From NCBI GenBank assembly GCA_029265335.1, contig JAJUJN010000128.1, positions 1 through 6,268 of the forward strand: 6,268 nucleotides of DNA. The letters run 5' to 3'. Within the stretch, counting starts at the first letter, position 1. Every line of letters begins with the position of its first letter. Both the position numbers and the translations under genes were made by a program. The notes under the pieces are model-generated. The model saw only the letters and a list, made by a program, of their open reading frames with translations, searched no databases and had not been told where the DNA came from. The stretch is from Alcaligenaceae bacterium. GTDB lineage: Bacteria; Pseudomonadota; Gammaproteobacteria; Burkholderiales; Burkholderiaceae_B. Shown here in pieces: positions 2 through 5,818 of this stretch.

Positions 2-250
2 TGCGGTGCAGATGCGCTGCAGTGCGAAACCGTGGCTGCCGAAGGCGTGGTGGCCGAAGCCACGGTGGTGCGCAAGGCGGCGGGCGTGGCGCCGGGGGCG
101 GTTCGCCATCTCGCCAGCGTGCGGCTGGAGCTCGGGCCCACAGTGCTGGCCCGCAGCGAATCTGCTCTCGAGCCTGGTGAGCGGGTTGTGCTCGCTCATC
201 ATCAAGGTGGCGCCGTCTGGGCGCACACCGTGACGCCAGAAGGCGCATGA
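2..250 (+). CDS. 3' end of an unidentified gene, possibly the TOBE-like tail of an ABC-transporter ATPase
   Basis: The frame is open from the first bases of the window and ends in TGA at 248-250, giving the last 82 or so residues of a protein whose start lies to the left. The visible part is rich in Val, Ala and Gly and reads as alternating short beta strands: VVAEATVV, then ASVRLELGPTVLARS, then LEPGERVVLAHHQGGAVW. This resembles the small TOBE beta-barrel that ends many ABC-transporter ATPases (an A-T-V opening strand, a central strand pair, and a PGE/PGD turn before the last strands). The resemblance is by eye only; another beta-rich C-terminal domain is possible. Its stop overlaps the next start as ATGA, so it is probably co-transcribed and translationally coupled with the GntR regulator. 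That the frame is coding is fairly sure; the family is a guess. Confidence 0.5.
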   Translation, partial: CGADALQCETVAAEGVVAEATVVRKAAGVAPGAVRHLASVRLELGPTVLARSESALEPGERVVLAHHQGGAVWAHTVTPEGA

Positions 251-963
251 CACGCAAGCTGAACATGCGCGAACGCGCTTACGCCGCGGTGCGCAAGCGC
301 ATGCAAGATGGTGATATCAGCTACCAGGATCGCTTGGTAGATCACGAAATCGCCGAGCAGCTAGGGATGTCGCGCATGCCGGTGCGCGAAGCCCTGCTGC
401 AACTCAAGAACGAAGGCTATCTCGAAGGCACGGCGCGCGGCTTTCGGCTGCGGCAGTTCACCCCTACCGAAATTGCGAATATCTTCGAGATTCGATTATT
501 GCTGGAGCCGCACGCGGCGATCGAGGCCTGTCGCAATGTGTCGATCCAGGGGCTGGGCGACATGCGGCACGCCCTGGAGGCTGCAACGATCGCCCACGCG
601 GAGTCGGCAGCGGTGGACTTCGTGCACGTGGGTTGGCGTTTTCGCCAGGCCTGGATGCAGATGACACCCAACCAACAGCTGGCCGAAACCATCGGCCGTC
701 TGCGCGATTTCGCCGATCTGGCTCGGCTCGCGGCCTTGCGTCAGCCGGAATACCGTGCGCGCAGTCTCGCCCGCATGCAGCAGATCTTTGAGGCGTTTCT
801 CGAGCGCAACCTCGCAGAGGTTGAAAAACGCATAGAAGAAAACCTCAGGGCCAGCGGCACCGCCTACTATGTGGAACAGAAGGCCTTGTTGGCCAACGAT
901 TCTGGGGCCTTGCACACCGAGGGCAACGCGCCTGCGCGCCCGGTGCGGAGGGCTTCAGGGTAA
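247..963 (+). CDS. GntR family transcriptional regulator, FCD (FadR-type) subfamily
   Basis: A 238-residue DNA-binding regulator. Residues 8-75 form the GntR winged helix-turn-helix: RERAYAAVRKRMQDG, then EIAEQLGMSRMPVREALLQL at 34-53 as helix-turn-helix with recognition helix, then the wing around GYLEGTARGFRL. Residues 76-215 match the all-helical FCD effector domain, opening with the typical EIANIFEIRLLLEP. FCD domains usually carry an Asp and three His that bind a metal. Here the usual FH position reads FR (131-133), the EH position reads MQ (177-178), and the last His position is Asn199, so the site looks degenerate. The tail after about 215 is low in complexity. The chosen ATG overlaps the previous stop by ATGA, with AAGG three bases upstream; Met7 is an alternative start. 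The binding-protein gene downstream, behind two repeat operators, is the likely target. It is a paralogue of the regulator at 4092-4826: about 52 of 91 residues match across the N-terminal part. Confidence 0.93.
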   Translation: MTRKLNMRERAYAAVRKRMQDGDISYQDRLVDHEIAEQLGMSRMPVREALLQLKNEGYLEGTARGFRLRQFTPTEIANIFEIRLLLEPHAAIEACRNVSIQGLGDMRHALEAATIAHAESAAVDFVHVGWRFRQAWMQMTPNQQLAETIGRLRDFADLARLAALRQPEYRARSLARMQQIFEAFLERNLAEVEKRIEENLRASGTAYYVEQKALLANDSGALHTEGNAPARPVRRASG

Positions 964-1066: not shown

Positions 1067-2035
1067 ATGAAAAAAGTGTCAGCCCTTGTGGGCAGTGTGT
1101 TGTGCGCCAGCCTGGCTTTCGGCTTGCCGATGGCTCAGGCGCAAGAAGCCAAAACTCTGAATCTCATCATTCCCTTTCCGCCGGGCGGCGCGGTAGATGG
1201 CCTGGCCCGGGTCTTGGCAGAAAAGCTTGCCGAGCAAGATAAATACCGTGCGGTAATCGTAGATAACCGCCCCGGAGCCGGTGGGCAAATCGCCGTCAAC
1301 GCGCTTAAAAATGCGCCCAAAGACGGCACTGCTTTTTATTTGGGGCATGGCGCCACCTACACGCTCAATCGTTTTGTGTACGACGATCTCAGCTACAACC
1401 CCGATGAAGACCTGGAGCCCGTTTCGATCGTGGCCACGGCACCGGTCTTTCTGATCGTGCCTGGCGATAGCCCCGACCAGACGCTTGAAGACTTCCTGGA
1501 GCGCGCCAAAACCGAACCCATGGATTTCGGCTCACCGGGTGTGGGAACCGAAACCCATCTGGCCGGCGAAGTGCTCAAGGTGCAGGCCGATATCGACGGT
1601 GAACACGTACCCTACAAGGGTGCGGGGCCCGCACTGATCGACCTTGCCACCGGCCGCATCGACTACATGTTCGATGTGCTGATCGGTTCCAATGCCTACC
1701 TGCAAGACGGCCGCTTGCGCGTGCTGGCGTCAGCCGGCAGCGAGCGCAGCGACTTCCAACCCGACGCGCCCACGTTCGCCGAAGGAGGGGTTGAAGGGAT
1801 CGACTTCGACCTGTTCTTTGCCGCGGCGGCTCCGGGTGGCACACCCAAAGAGGTTGTCGACGAACTGAGCGCCGATATTCGCAAAGCGATGGTGCAAGAT
1901 GATGTCATCGAGCAATTCGCCAAATTGGGTATGGTGATTCAGGCCAGCACGCCCGAAGAAATGCAAGAGCGCGTCGACAACGACGTGGCCAGCTTCACCG
2001 AGATTCTCAAGAATCCCGAGATCAAAGTGAAGTAA
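1067..2035 (+). CDS. Bug/TctC family tripartite tricarboxylate transporter solute-binding protein
   Basis: A 322-residue periplasmic binding protein that would capture a carboxylate-type solute. Residues 1-25 are a Sec signal peptide (MKK, hydrophobic core, cleavage after AQA). The mature protein opens with the family signature LNLIIPFPPGGAVDGLAR (31-48), then VDNRPGAGGQIAVNAL (about 66-81), and later DFGSPGVGTETHLAGEVL and VPYKGAGPALIDLATGRIDYMF, all typical Bug segments. Length is normal for the family. The start is well supported by GGAGGAG at 1057-1063, five bases or fewer from the ATG. The usual membrane partners TctA and TctB are not in the window, as is common for the many orphan Bug genes of Burkholderiales. 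It lies between the GntR regulator with its operator repeats and a Rieske oxygenase; TphC, the terephthalate binder, has the same position in tph operons. An aromatic-acid ligand is therefore plausible but not shown by the sequence. Confidence 0.95.
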   Translation: MKKVSALVGSVLCASLAFGLPMAQAQEAKTLNLIIPFPPGGAVDGLARVLAEKLAEQDKYRAVIVDNRPGAGGQIAVNALKNAPKDGTAFYLGHGATYTLNRFVYDDLSYNPDEDLEPVSIVATAPVFLIVPGDSPDQTLEDFLERAKTEPMDFGSPGVGTETHLAGEVLKVQADIDGEHVPYKGAGPALIDLATGRIDYMFDVLIGSNAYLQDGRLRVLASAGSERSDFQPDAPTFAEGGVEGIDFDLFFAAAAPGGTPKEVVDELSADIRKAMVQDDVIEQFAKLGMVIQASTPEEMQERVDNDVASFTEILKNPEIKVK

Positions 2036-2259: not shown

Positions 2260-3588
2260 ATGAATGTGTCATATCGCAATGATCCCGCGCGTCTGGCCGG
2301 CCTGGTGCAGCCCGGTCGGATTCACCGCGATGCTTATATCAACCCCGAAATCTTCGACCTCGAAATGGAGCGCCTGTGGTCGCGCAGTTGGCTGTTTGTT
2401 GGCCCTGCCGATATTGTGCCCAATCCCGGAGACTACTGGCGCACCACATTGGCCGGCCAGTCGGTATTCATGATGCGGCAGACCGATGGCAAGGTGGCGG
2501 TTTTCATGAATCGCTGTGCCCACAAAGGCGCCGAGGTTGTGCTCGATACTCAGGGCAATGTGGGTAAGCTGATTCGATGCCCGTATCATGCCTGGAACTA
2601 CCGCCTCGATGGCAGTCTGCTGTCTTTGCCGCTCAAGAACGATTACGAAGGCAGCGGCGTGTGGGAGAGCCCTGCAGGTCAGGGCCTGGCGCAGCCTGGC
2701 GCGGTGCGTGAGTATCGCGGCCTGGTATTTGCCCGTCTGTCGCCCGAAGGCGACGACTTCGAAACCTACTTCGGCGAAGTATTGGCCATTCTCGATCTGG
2801 TGGCCGATCGTTCACCCGAAGGACGGCTCGAACTCACCGGTCGGCCGCTGCGCAGCGAGATTCGCTGCAACTGGAAGATGTATCTCGAGAACGTCAACGA
2901 CAGCGTTCACCCGATTTCGGCCCACGAATCGGCGGCCAACTCGGCCAAGGTAGTGGCGGGCCGCATGGCGGAAGGCGCGGAAAAAGAATTGGCGATGGAG
3001 CAGCTGCTGCCGTTCGGCGCCGGCTACACCTTCTATACCAAGATGGGGGCCAAGCTGTTGGCCAACGGCCACAGCATCCATGGCACGCATTTCAGCATCC
3101 ATTCGGGCTACGCCGCCATCGAAGGCTATGAAGACATGTTGATCGCCGCGCATGGCGAGGCGCGCGCCCGCGAGGTGCTTTCTTTCTCGCCGCAAAATAC
3201 GATTCTCTATCCCAGCATGGCTATCAAGGCCAATCCAAGCGTGGTGCGCGTGCTGCGCCCCGTGGCCGTCGATCGCATGGTGCTCGAAGCCTGGGCGCTG
3301 GCGCCAGTGGGCGCTCCGGACATCCTGCGCAAGCAGGCGGTGAACTACTCACGTTTGGTGTTTTCGCCCCTCTCGGTAGTGGCCCACGACGACTTGCGCC
3401 TGTTCGAAAGTGCCCAGGAAGGCTTGCACACGCAAGGCAACGATTGGATCAGCCTGCATCGCGGCTTGAGCGGCGACGCTGACCCCGAGTTGCCGCACGA
3501 AATCGAAGACGGCAATGACGAGATCATGATGCGCAATCAGTATCGCGCCTGGGCGCAAGGGATGGCGCCGGCAGGAGAAAAAGCATGA
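2260..3588 (+). CDS. Rieske [2Fe-2S] aromatic-ring-hydroxylating oxygenase, large (alpha) subunit
   Basis: A 442-residue catalytic subunit of a cytoplasmic ring-hydroxylating oxygenase. The N-terminal Rieske domain holds the cluster ligands in C-x-H-x18-C-x2-H: Cys86, His88 (CAHKG), Cys107, His110 (CPYH). The C-terminal catalytic domain has NWKMYLENVNDSVHPISAH, giving Asp214 as the bridge to the neighbouring Rieske centre and His217 and His222 as mononuclear-iron ligands. The third ligand is probably Asp377 or Asp378 (HDDLRLFE). The usual D-x-Y-H reads D-S-V-H here, with Val216 for Tyr, which places it outside the best-known naphthalene/biphenyl group. The frame is open back to 2059, but homologues begin near PGRIHRDAYINPEIFDLE, so the ATG at 2260 is chosen although no good ribosome-binding site precedes it. 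Beta follows with a 4-bp overlap. No ferredoxin or reductase gene is in view, so electrons must come from elsewhere. The substrate cannot be read from the sequence. Confidence 0.95.
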   Translation: MNVSYRNDPARLAGLVQPGRIHRDAYINPEIFDLEMERLWSRSWLFVGPADIVPNPGDYWRTTLAGQSVFMMRQTDGKVAVFMNRCAHKGAEVVLDTQGNVGKLIRCPYHAWNYRLDGSLLSLPLKNDYEGSGVWESPAGQGLAQPGAVREYRGLVFARLSPEGDDFETYFGEVLAILDLVADRSPEGRLELTGRPLRSEIRCNWKMYLENVNDSVHPISAHESAANSAKVVAGRMAEGAEKELAMEQLLPFGAGYTFYTKMGAKLLANGHSIHGTHFSIHSGYAAIEGYEDMLIAAHGEARAREVLSFSPQNTILYPSMAIKANPSVVRVLRPVAVDRMVLEAWALAPVGAPDILRKQAVNYSRLVFSPLSVVAHDDLRLFESAQEGLHTQGNDWISLHRGLSGDADPELPHEIEDGNDEIMMRNQYRAWAQGMAPAGEKA

Positions 3589-4073
3589 GCACCACCACCA
3601 ATCTCAAAGAGGAATTGATCGCCGCGGTGTACCGCGAAGCACGCTTGCTCGACGAAGGTCGCTTCGACGAATGGCGTGACCAACTCACTGCCGATGCCCA
3701 TTATTGGGTGCCCGCCGATCCTGCCGATACCGACCCCCTGCGTCAGCCGGCCCTGATCTACGAAGATCGGCTGCTGCTCGACGTGCGCATCGAGCGACTC
3801 AACGATCCGCGGGCGCATTCCCTGCAACCGCGCGTGCGTTGTTTGCACGTGCTGCAGCAGCCCGAGGTGCTGGCGCTGAACGAAGCCGAAGGCAGCGCCG
3901 AAATCGAGGTGCGCTATGTGTATCTCGAAACGCAGGGAGATCGTCAGGTGGTACTGGGCGCCGTGGCCCGTCAAACGTGGTTGCGCCAGAACGATAGCTG
4001 GCGTTTGCAGCGCAAGCGAGTGGATCTGCTGAATGTGGATGCGCCGCTGCCCATGGTGCAACTGCTGCCCTGA
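3585..4073 (+). CDS. Aromatic-ring-hydroxylating dioxygenase small (beta) subunit
   Basis: A 162-residue structural subunit with the SnoaL/NTF2-like cone fold that packs with alpha, normally as alpha3beta3. The recognisable segments are VYREARLLDEGRFDEWRDQL (15-34), AHYWVPADP, IYEDRLLLDVRIERL, then QPRVRCLH where relatives have P-x-S-R-T/R-x-H, and the final strand pair WLRQNDSWRLQRKRVDLLN. Length is normal (about 160-190 in the family). The ATG overlaps the alpha TGA as ATGA and is preceded by AGGAGA at 3573-3578, six bases upstream, so it is translationally coupled to alpha for equal output. The gene ends 18 bp before the stop of the convergent GntR gene, so the oxygenase unit stops here without the reductase or dehydrogenase genes that often follow. 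Confidence 0.93.
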   Translation: MSTTTNLKEELIAAVYREARLLDEGRFDEWRDQLTADAHYWVPADPADTDPLRQPALIYEDRLLLDVRIERLNDPRAHSLQPRVRCLHVLQQPEVLALNEAEGSAEIEVRYVYLETQGDRQVVLGAVARQTWLRQNDSWRLQRKRVDLLNVDAPLPMVQLLP

Positions 4074-4077
4074 ACGC

Positions 4078-4090
4078 CGGCCTCTGGCCG
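4078..4090. terminator. Short dyad between convergent genes
   Basis: CGGCC (4078-4082), loop TCT, GGCCG (4086-4090) lies in the 18-bp gap between the beta-subunit stop and the stop of the minus-strand GntR gene. Being symmetrical, it would form on both transcripts. No T-run follows in either direction, so a role as a bidirectional terminator is only suggested by position. Confidence 0.3.
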
Positions 4091-4091
4091 C

Positions 4092-4826
4092 TCAACGATC
4101 CGCCGCCGCCGAAGGAATGTCTTTGTTGCCGGGTTCGGGCAAGGGCAGGGCTGCCGGGGGCAGCCGGCCAGCACGGTAGAGCTGGTCGTAGGATTCGGCC
4201 GCGGCCCTCACCTGGCGCAGCATGCAGGCGTGCAAAGCGGCCTCGTCGTGCTGGCGAAACGCTTTGTTCACCTCGGTCATGCCATTAATGATGAGGGTGC
4301 GAGTGGCTGGATCTGCCATGGTGGCCAGGCGGATGATCTGCACATGGTCGATGAACCGAGCGATGGTGCTGGCCAATACCTGGTTGGGCACCATATCTAC
4401 CCAAGCCATACGAAAACTTGCATTGTGACGCACGAAGGCGGCCACGTCGTGGTTGCGCCACGCTTCTTCGGTGGCGCTGAGCGCCGCTTGCATGGCTTCC
4501 AGGCCTTGCGGCTGGGCGTTCCGGCTGGCCATCACCGCTGCCGGTGGCTCGATCAGCTCCCGCATTTCAAAGATGTCGTGAAGCTCTTTGCGGCGGAACC
4601 GGCGCAACATGAAGCCTCGCGCCGTACTGCGCAGCAAGCCTTCGTGACGCAGTTGCAGCAAGGCTTCACGCGCGGGCATGCGCGAGGTGCCCGCAGCTTT
4701 GGCCACATCGTGATCCACCAGCCGATCGTCCAGGCCGATCTCACCGCGCTGGATCCGTTCGCGGATTTCCCGATAGATGCGCTCGCGATGCGACATATTG
4801 CGCTTTGGGGTGCCGGTGGTGCTCAC
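4092..4826 (-). CDS. GntR family transcriptional regulator, FCD subfamily (second copy)
   Basis: A 244-residue regulator from the GTG at 4826. The winged helix-turn-helix (about 12-78) includes RERIYREIRERIQRGEI, the recognition helix TSRMPAREALLQL (47-59) and the wing GLLRSTARGFMLRRF. The FCD domain starts at ELHDIFEMRELIEPPAA (81-97). As in the first regulator the metal-ligand positions look lost: SFR (137-139) instead of FH, TEV where EH is usual, and Gln205 near the last His position. The recognition helix is almost identical to that of the regulator at 247-963. Start choice: the GTG overlaps the TGA of the V4R gene as GTGA, suggesting translational coupling; the ATG at 4796 (11th codon) aligns closely with the homologue and is the alternative. 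Neither has a clear ribosome-binding site. It is the last gene of a three-gene operon and probably controls that operon and/or the divergent binding-protein gene. Confidence 0.92.
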   Translation of the reverse strand: MSTTGTPKRNMSHRERIYREIRERIQRGEIGLDDRLVDHDVAKAAGTSRMPAREALLQLRHEGLLRSTARGFMLRRFRRKELHDIFEMRELIEPPAAVMASRNAQPQGLEAMQAALSATEEAWRNHDVAAFVRHNASFRMAWVDMVPNQVLASTIARFIDHVQIIRLATMADPATRTLIINGMTEVNKAFRQHDEAALHACMLRQVRAAAESYDQLYRAGRLPPAALPLPEPGNKDIPSAAADR

Positions 4827-5368
4827 GGATCGAGCGCTGCGCCCGGCGCCAGGTGGAACGTGCAATGGTCGTGCCCTTGGGCGGCACACTGGGTTTCGGT
4901 CACGGTGGCGCCCTCATCCACCAGGAGCCTGCCCACTGCCCGCAACATGCCCTGGATGGGTGCGCAAACCGGAACTTCGCTGGGGCCGTGGCCATGCGCA
5001 AAAGGGCTGTGCTCTACCTTGAGCCAGAACCCTTGCTGCAAGTGCTCCGGATTCACCGCTACTTGCAGCTCGGCGTCGGCATGAAACTGCCAGGAGCCCC
5101 AACCGAGGTCGGCCGACGAGCTGACCATGGTTTGAAGGAAGGCGGCAGCGTTGCCATCAAGACTCTCGAAATAGACTTGCGCCGAGCGGCCGCCATTTTC
5201 GGCCACGCTGTCGGCCATGGCCTGCAGCAGGGTATTGCGGTGATCTTCAGGCACGCGATGCAAGAAGCCCATCAGGACATCGGGGCGCATCATCAAGTAG
5301 CGTCGGTCGGCGTCGTAGATGGCGCCTTGGTTGAGGTCGTGGCGCAAACGATCTTTGAGGGCTCCCAT
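4823..5368 (-). CDS. Free-standing V4R (4-vinyl reductase) domain protein, XylR/DmpR-sensor-like
   Basis: A 181-residue soluble protein. Residues 18-30 (YDADRRYLMMRPD) and DLGWGSWQF (87-95) resemble the sensor region of XylR/DmpR-type regulators; residues 100-175 match the V4R small-molecule-binding domain, ending ETQCAAQGHDHCTFHL. Cys135, Glu158, Cys161 and Cys169 are spaced C-x22-E-x2-C-x7-C. As I recall, the zinc ligands of the phenol sensor MopR (Cys155, Glu178, Cys181, Cys189) have exactly this spacing, so the structural zinc site looks complete. Trp115 lies near the position of a ligand-pocket Trp there. There is no AAA+ ATPase and no helix-turn-helix, so alone it cannot act as such a regulator. 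The ATG is supported by AAGGAG at 5379-5384, which overlaps the thioesterase stop; the gap to that gene is 15 bp. The 3' end overlaps the GntR start. Likely role: binding an aromatic ligand as sensor, carrier or enzyme accessory. The family is sure, the function open. Confidence 0.85.
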   Translation of the reverse strand: MGALKDRLRHDLNQGAIYDADRRYLMMRPDVLMGFLHRVPEDHRNTLLQAMADSVAENGGRSAQVYFESLDGNAAAFLQTMVSSSADLGWGSWQFHADAELQVAVNPEHLQQGFWLKVEHSPFAHGHGPSEVPVCAPIQGMLRAVGRLLVDEGATVTETQCAAQGHDHCTFHLAPGAALDP

Positions 5369-5383: not shown

Positions 5384-5809
5384 TCAGGCTGGCAGCATGG
5401 TTTGGATTCGCTCCCGGATATCGGCAGGAATCTCGGTGGATTCTTGGGTGTCGAGGTTCATGAAGACGATAGTCATTCGGGCCTCCAGTTTGGGTGTTTT
5501 GGGGGGCTCGGCATCTTTCAGTGCGATCTTCAGGCTGACCGACGAACGGCCAAGCTTTTCTACCGAAAGTTCTTTGGTGATGGCTTCGCCCAGCATACCG
5601 GGAGACTTGAACTCCACATTGAGACTGACCACCGGTATGCCAAGCTTGCGCTCGAGATGCAGAGCGTTGAAGTCGACATTCAAATAGTGCTTGAACCAGT
5701 GTTCGATCGTGTCGTTGAGCATCTCGACGTATCGCGGGTAGAACACGATGCCCGCCGGGTCGCAATGCCGGAACATGATTTCGGATGGAACGATATACAC
5801 TTGGCTCAC
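5384..5809 (-). CDS. Acyl-CoA thioesterase, 4-hydroxybenzoyl-CoA thioesterase-like hotdog fold
   Basis: A 141-residue hotdog-fold enzyme expected to hydrolyse an acyl- or aroyl-CoA thioester in the cytoplasm. The signature FRHCDPAGIVFYPRYVEMLND (13-33) is the 4HBT active-site motif with catalytic Asp17 in DPAGIVFYPRY; a long helix follows, then strands VSLNVEFKSP, SSVSLKIAL and EARMTIVFMNLD. With the GTG start at 5809 the length (141) and catalytic residue number (Asp17) equal those I recall for the Pseudomonas CBS3 enzyme. This start also has AGGAG nine bases upstream. A TTG three codons earlier (5818) would touch the AGGAG directly and is rejected. It is the first gene of the operon with the V4R protein and the second GntR regulator. 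The neighbouring oxygenase makes an aromatic CoA thioester a reasonable substrate, but hotdog enzymes cannot be assigned a substrate by sequence alone. Confidence 0.92.
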   Translation of the reverse strand: MSQVYIVPSEIMFRHCDPAGIVFYPRYVEMLNDTIEHWFKHYLNVDFNALHLERKLGIPVVSLNVEFKSPGMLGEAITKELSVEKLGRSSVSLKIALKDAEPPKTPKLEARMTIVFMNLDTQESTEIPADIRERIQTMLPA

Positions 5810-5818
5810 GATGACCAA

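Follow-up and report, generated by a model that had tools for sequence, protein, structure and literature searches.

The stand-alone V4R protein encoded in the 6,268-nucleotide stretch of DNA analysed here (hereafter the window) is most likely an aromatic-binding accessory of ring-oxygenase gene clusters, which in the window's own bacterial family may tentatively be regarded as wired to the GntR regulator encoded directly after it. Across 55 loci with V4R relatives the ring oxygenase proved to be a steadier partner of V4R than GntR, while within the family the adjacency of V4R and GntR genes held without exception. Below, we lay out the evidence for both associations and weigh the readings that they allow.

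Genomic context

The draft genome that carries the window comprises 2.65 Mb in 543 contigs, is 89% complete and falls into the genus group of Verticiella sp. GG226, within the family of Alcaligenes, Achromobacter and Bordetella; it contains a single V4R match. On the plus strand, a GntR gene (GntR2) is followed by two palindromes, the gene for a TctC-type solute-binding protein and the genes for the alpha and beta subunits of a Rieske oxygenase, the last of which ends at 4073. Convergent to the beta-subunit gene lies a minus-strand block containing, by position, GntR1, V4R and a thioesterase gene, beyond which a second TctC gene starts (5912, plus strand). The annotated features are as follows.

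247 to 963, plus strand: GntR2, a second regulator of the GntR1 subfamily, away from V4R (Pfam; same 28-row clade)
963 to 976, no strand: palindrome AACAGTATATTGTT, candidate operator, copy 1 (exact copy; site counts in paired versus unpaired loci)
988 to 1001, no strand: palindrome AACAGTATATTGTT, candidate operator, copy 2 (exact copy)
1067 to 2035, plus strand: TctC-type solute-binding protein, the first gene past the candidate operators (Pfam PF03401)
2260 to 3588, plus strand: alpha subunit of a Rieske ring-hydroxylating oxygenase (Pfam PF00355, PF00848)
3585 to 4073, plus strand: beta subunit of the ring-hydroxylating oxygenase (Pfam PF00866)
4092 to 4826, minus strand: GntR1, a wHTH and FCD regulator, 244 aa from the GTG at 4826 (Pfam GntR and FCD, AF2, fold matches)
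4823 to 4826, minus strand: GTGA start-stop overlap of V4R and GntR1 (read from the sequence)
4823 to 5368, minus strand: V4R, stand-alone, 181 aa, predicted XylR/MopR-type sensory module with C135/E158/C161/C169 (Pfam PF02830, AF2, fold matches)
5384 to 5818, minus strand: 4HBT-type thioesterase, encoded in the orientation of V4R and 15 nt upstream of it (Pfam 4HBT_2)

The Rieske alpha subunit is benA-like at 159 bits, which is below the benA cut-off of 781 bits. Its gene overlaps that of the beta subunit by ATGA (3585-3588), and the convergent 3' ends of the beta-subunit and GntR1 genes are 18 nt apart (4074-4091).

Domain, fold and zinc-ligand pattern of V4R

The preliminary description of the window had portrayed V4R as a sensor domain devoid of ATPase and DNA-binding domains, and this was borne out: the 181-residue protein has V4R as its sole Pfam domain (PF02830, E 2.5e-13), with 50.3 bits against a curated cut-off of 31, and thus belongs to the V4R family. 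The C-x22-E-x2-C-x7-C pattern ascribed to it is likewise exact (C135, E158, C161, C169) and cannot be put down to chance, because all four ligands are invariant in 32/32 aligned V4R sequences, that is, the query and 31 sequences picked from the 59 other relatives found. Zinc binding by V4R is predicted from homology. Identical ligand spacing was observed in MopR where aligned (chain residues 155/178/181/189) and in the NtrC-type proteins of the window's family, whereas the DmpR ligands, numbered Cys151, Glu172, Cys177 and Cys185 in PMC7264223, are spaced differently from those of the window V4R. NtrC-length V4R proteins (571-aa ORFs; L073-L081) are present in eight genomes of genus group g2, the group to which Alcaligenes belongs, and seven of these eight carry a stand-alone V4R as well.

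For the AF2 model of V4R (pLDDT 95.7), the top 18 PDB fold matches were all PoxR, MopR or DmpR, with a TM-score to the query of about 0.7. As this fold extends over the whole protein, the gene appears to encode the entire sensory module, beyond the 62-position piece covered by Pfam, and V4R is predicted to be a free-standing module with the fold of the MopR/PoxR/DmpR aromatic-sensing domain. The pocket differs in that Tyr161, Tyr165 and Tyr176 of MopR are replaced by Met141, Val145 and Val156 where aligned (pocket list given in PMC10715001), and these three differing residues mean that a phenol-type ligand is not implied for the window V4R. With respect to the His/Trp phenol anchor, the sequence alignments span the last third of the protein and a short segment at its N-terminal side, and the NtrC-type profile alignment the C-terminal third alone. 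Ten seemingly long V4R proteins (275-659 aa) turned out on inspection by eye to be start-codon artefacts reading into upstream DNA rather than fusions.

The Cys/Glu site also bears on a reading in which V4R, in the manner of the V4R domain in archaeal MsvR, senses redox state or metals and guards oxygenase expression against oxidative stress. A weak match to MsvR (E 1.2e-5; 25 bits against a cut-off of 220) and three conserved Cys that have counterparts in MsvR, for which site-directed mutagenesis suggested an effect on DNA binding (PMC3729527), point in this direction, but MopR-type sensors use the same residues as a structural zinc site (PMC10715001) and it is these sensors that the V4R fold matches. 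We therefore consider a redox function improbable.

Association of V4R with ring oxygenases

In the genome_contigs set, in which 55 loci encode V4R relatives, a Rieske alpha gene is located near V4R in 41/55 loci and in 32 of the 35 loci with full flanks. This corresponds to an approximately 44-fold enrichment over background, with 25 Rieske alpha genes in 491,655 bases (21/24 loci) versus 167 matches to PF00848 across the roughly 146 Mb of the 24 corresponding genomes, a figure to be read as one from 24 of the 55 loci that we chose ourselves and that are mostly long, from two search methods, from a background that includes the loci and from sizes summed from rounded values. When sorted by the neighbour of V4R, the 55 loci comprise 20 with a Rieske gene on the same strand, seven with a flavin-monooxygenase-like gene, 14 with a GntR pair and 14 others, most neighbour identities being derived from Pfam scans of 30 cluster representatives. 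A co-directional GntR is absent from all 20 Rieske-abutting and all seven flavin-monooxygenase-like loci, and in two of the 20 (L038, L047) a GntR from the same clade lies just downstream in convergent orientation. The flavin-monooxygenase-like gene that adjoins V4R is of the Acyl-CoA_dh_2 type (L007, L019, L022, L034, L039, L040, L055); no Rieske gene is present in the L007 and L034 loci. Neither a GntR of the same kind nor a LysR, the two regulator types searched for, was found in 25/55 loci, several of which are short. Taken together, the association with Rieske genes suggests that the role of V4R across its protein family is tied to aromatic ring oxygenation, while the link to GntR represents wiring at the level of the window's family.

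These counts also support an alternative that we hold to be a genuine, if tentative, possibility: V4R could serve the ring oxygenase inside the cell as an aromatic-binding carrier or accessory that holds its substrate or product or passes it on. The GntR adjacency would then reflect how the operon is arranged, and the FCD domain would allow GntR to sense on its own, as in VanR. Besides the enrichment near Rieske genes and the position of V4R directly next to Rieske genes on the same strand (20/55) or to flavin-monooxygenase-like genes (7/55), the 21 positions that are invariant across the 32 aligned V4R sequences suggest one constant job, and bilin-enzyme clusters, too, are accompanied by stand-alone V4R proteins (PMC10151467). 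Against it stand the loci of opp type described below, where V4R is located in the regulator's unit and outside the oxygenase operon, the nearest solved folds, which are those of sensors rather than carriers, and one genome (G196) that has kept its oxygenase genes without V4R. A carrier or accessory function accounts for the wider V4R family better than does a two-protein switch of V4R and GntR, and both are compatible with each other. The more specific suggestion that V4R serves as a ligand carrier for the neighbouring thioesterase is weak, as thioesterase-like genes were found in five of the 55 loci and adjoin V4R in none of them.

Conservation of the V4R-GntR pair

Adjacency of V4R and GntR, on which the initial proposal of a split sensor had been built, was found to be conserved inside the window's family (22/22) and rare outside it (1/42 loci). 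V4R was detected in 22/268 family genomes (E <= 1e-10), all of which have a GntR gene directly downstream on the same strand; these 22 cases consist of 15 loci, a further six loci and the window, and several of the genomes also belong to the genome_contigs set. In the latter, a co-directional GntR directly follows V4R in 14/55 loci and is absent in 41/55. All 13 loci labelled as Alcaligenaceae are paired, compared with one of the 42 other loci, some of which are drafts without a family label. The 14 pairs stem from Pusillimonas, Mesopusillimonas, three Alcaligenes, two Bordetella, Verticiella, five Achromobacter and one Burkholderiaceae draft (L009). A possible GntR start is positioned -8 to +15 nt from the V4R stop in the window and in 12 of the 14 pairs (all but L006 and L044), and 11 of the 14 share an opp-type layout, in which V4R-GntR is divergent from OppA, followed by more transport genes and the Rieske alpha and beta genes. 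A 94-aa GntR fragment at +272 in L008 is of a different type and was excluded from the pairs.

Phylogenetically, the pairs are spread over no fewer than three branches in each of the V4R and GntR trees, and these branches correspond. Pairing requires four changes on the V4R tree, at least three of them forced, the fork that unites the Alcaligenes-Pusillimonas set being weak (83/78). This tree retains one artefact row (a second 'V4R' in L035 that coincides with the beta subunit, with a branch length of 10) and excludes L056, which is cut off. In the search that identified the pairs, five divergent V4R loci (L016, L028, L041, L052, L054) remained under the score limit, and their V4R was placed by other searches. 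Paired and unpaired members are interspersed in the GntR subfamily (a clade of 28 rows, 100/99), where the pairing state has changed four times or more. When approached from the regulator, a paired-GntR profile (E <= 1e-30; matches in 30/200 genomes) yielded 30 loci, with V4R beside GntR in 16/30 and not beside it in 14/30. No V4R-GntR fusion was found among 48 GntR relatives in a search that admitted proteins of up to about 427 aa, and mirror-tree distances revealed no specific tie between V4R and GntR, with a partial r of 0.32 versus 0.60 for V4R-OppA in 11 loci. The closest V4R (75%, P0004) and the closest distinct GntR (78%, P0064) both have a longest contig of 294,180 bases and thus probably lie on one contig.

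The lack of a specific distance correlation, together with the retention of GntR without V4R in G196, would fit a situation in which V4R and GntR are coincidental neighbours, co-transcribed without a functional link. We consider this unlikely in view of the pairing in all 22 family cases, its spread over at least three branches and the start-stop coupling.

The GntR1 regulator and its FCD domain

The start of GntR1 had been placed at a GTG that overlaps the V4R stop codon, and this reading holds: the GTG at 4826 and the TGA of V4R share the sequence GTGA (4826-4823). An alternative ATG is available at 4796, and the GTG is favoured by the KPN/KRN-type segment that homologues carry directly ahead of the position of this ATG. 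With a GntR wHTH and an FCD domain (Pfam E 1.7e-19; AF2 model pLDDT 89.6), GntR1 belongs to the GntR-FCD (VanR/FadR) regulators, and its best structural matches are McbR, ranking first, and Atu1419/VanR.

In Atu1419, the zinc site is formed by Asn137 and three His (PMC7797058). The claim that the FCD domain of GntR1 seems to lack the metal-binding His residues stood for the His themselves, as Arg139 replaces the first and the two later ones are absent (both columns aligned by eye), while the Asn of the site is kept; the metal-dependent effector site of the form Asn/Asp-x3-His plus two His is thus not present. An Arg in place of the first His was found in 20/20 aligned GntR members (position 139 of P0002), whether paired or unpaired, the window's GntR2 being among the unpaired ones, and E. 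coli McbR likewise has N-x-x-F-R at this site. An Asn has been retained in 17/20 members, and the last His, absent from GntR1, is found in 7/20 (Bordetella/Achromobacter/Verticiella rows and one outgroup row). We conclude that the Arg is a real change, yet, being a trait of the subfamily irrespective of pairing, it is no evidence that sensing has moved to V4R. The FCD domain is complete in the GntR1 model, and R139, W142, N148 and R166 are invariant in 20/20 members; a whole FCD domain with invariant polar residues suggests that GntR may still bind an effector of its own.

A palindrome as candidate operator

The window contains two copies of the palindrome AACARTATAYTGTT, which start 25 bp apart and separate GntR2 from the TctC-Rieske operon; no further copy (<=1 mismatch) was found in the rest of the draft genome. 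In paired loci, it is located upstream of V4R, with two copies 86-89 bp apart in 11/14 (<=2 mismatches), and in those of opp type the palindromes lie between V4R-GntR and the divergent OppA side. Searching for AACANTATANTGTT with <=1 mismatch gave 22 sites across the 15 paired loci (276,789 bases, counting the window), versus one across the 41 unpaired loci (671,431 bases), and this sole site (L027) is close to a GntR gene. Twenty first-order Markov shuffles of the paired loci contained no site at this threshold, and neither did the paired locus L009. Upstream of the thioesterase-V4R-GntR1 block of the window no close site was detected, the best match (5789) having three mismatches. Genome-wide, the exact palindrome was present in 16/200 family genomes, six with and ten without V4R, compared with 5/200 for the reversed control (assessed by eye). 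Since these exact counts do not track V4R, the value of the palindrome lies in its position in the paired loci, and AACARTATAYTGTT is likely the operator of this GntR subfamily, a candidate drawn from site placement.

A regulator and oxygenase without V4R

The G196 locus (L112, G196:C1:1568000-1584500) comprises OppA, OppB, OppC, an ABC gene, Rieske alpha and beta, a divergent GntR and a site with one mismatch. V4R is absent from this locus and was not found elsewhere in the G196 genome either. As the GntRs of Bordetella/Achromobacter form the sister group of the G196 GntR (96/89), a loss of V4R is the simpler reading. This locus counts against a strict split sensor, as regulator, site and oxygenase have been kept without V4R.

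A possible two-protein switch

The preliminary description had suggested that ligand sensing and DNA binding may reside in separate polypeptides. Pairing in 22/22 family cases agrees with this division; 41/55 unpaired loci, an FCD Arg that is general to the subfamily and the absence of V4R from G196 do not. Within the window's family, V4R might be the ligand-sensing half and the overlapping GntR the DNA-binding half of a two-protein switch, a proposal that we put forward as a working idea with somewhat less than even confidence. In such a switch, a GntR dimer on the palindromes would repress the transporter-oxygenase operon and, in loci of opp type, also its own V4R-GntR unit; V4R would bind an aromatic substrate or product and contact GntR in trans, loosening it from DNA. 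Outside the family, V4R would be the same aromatic-binding accessory, encoded within oxygenase operons that have a different linked regulator or none.

The switch draws on the complete pairing, the start-stop coupling, the aromatic-sensor folds, the palindromes and the corresponding tree branches. Speaking against it are the unpaired loci, G196, a whole FCD domain as in self-sensing VanR-type regulators and the lack of fusions and of a distance tie; in addition, the window's palindromes adjoin GntR2 and none is close to the thioesterase-V4R-GntR1 block. In a broader and still more tentative formulation, the XylR/MopR sensing domain may have been freed from its ATPase and DNA-binding domains as an exchangeable sensor for ring-oxygenase clusters, which in Alcaligenaceae would act on GntR at AACARTATAYTGTT.

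Among the matches listed in our search of the open-access literature, no description of V4R with a GntR regulator or of V4R with Rieske clusters was found; one match containing both terms (PMC4417242) concerns a V4R regulator of the sigma54 type and a GntR gene unrelated to it. If true, a two-protein V4R/GntR switch would be of a kind not described there among those matches. A widespread stand-alone V4R tied to ring oxygenases (41/55 loci), and linked within one family to a regulator that has a candidate operator, would show the re-use of a sensing module, and V4R/GntR would constitute a small system of two genes with possible use as a biosensor part. Even without the split-sensor reading, the association of V4R with oxygenases and the palindrome hold.

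Comparison with known systems

Aromatic sensing by V4R is known from one-protein sigma54 activators. The window V4R has in common with the sensory domain of MopR, PoxR, DmpR and XylR the predicted fold, the Cys3-Glu site and a setting of aromatic catabolism, but differs from these proteins in having no AAA+ ATPase, B-linker or HTH. In DmpR, the signal passes through the linker (PMC7264223), which the 181-aa window V4R does not contain. The pre-PcyA and slr0144-slr0149 clusters resemble the present loci in that V4R genes lie beside enzyme genes, and differ in their bilin and photosystem setting and in typically having two V4R genes per cluster (PMC10151467).

On the side of the regulator, GntR1 shares its wHTH and FCD architecture with the VanR-type Atu1419 and with McbR/YncC, and the two spaced palindromes recall the control region of Atu1419, a tetramer seen looping DNA, which likewise contains two palindromes (PMC7797058). 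Unlike Atu1419, the GntR1 subfamily has Arg for the first metal His, and in the window's family a separate V4R gene is coupled to the regulator. PipX and PII are not known to be V4R proteins. As separate signalling proteins (PipX-PII), they contact PlmA, a GntR-family regulator of cyanobacteria (PMC5083789), and so offer a precedent for the contact between V4R and GntR that is proposed here.
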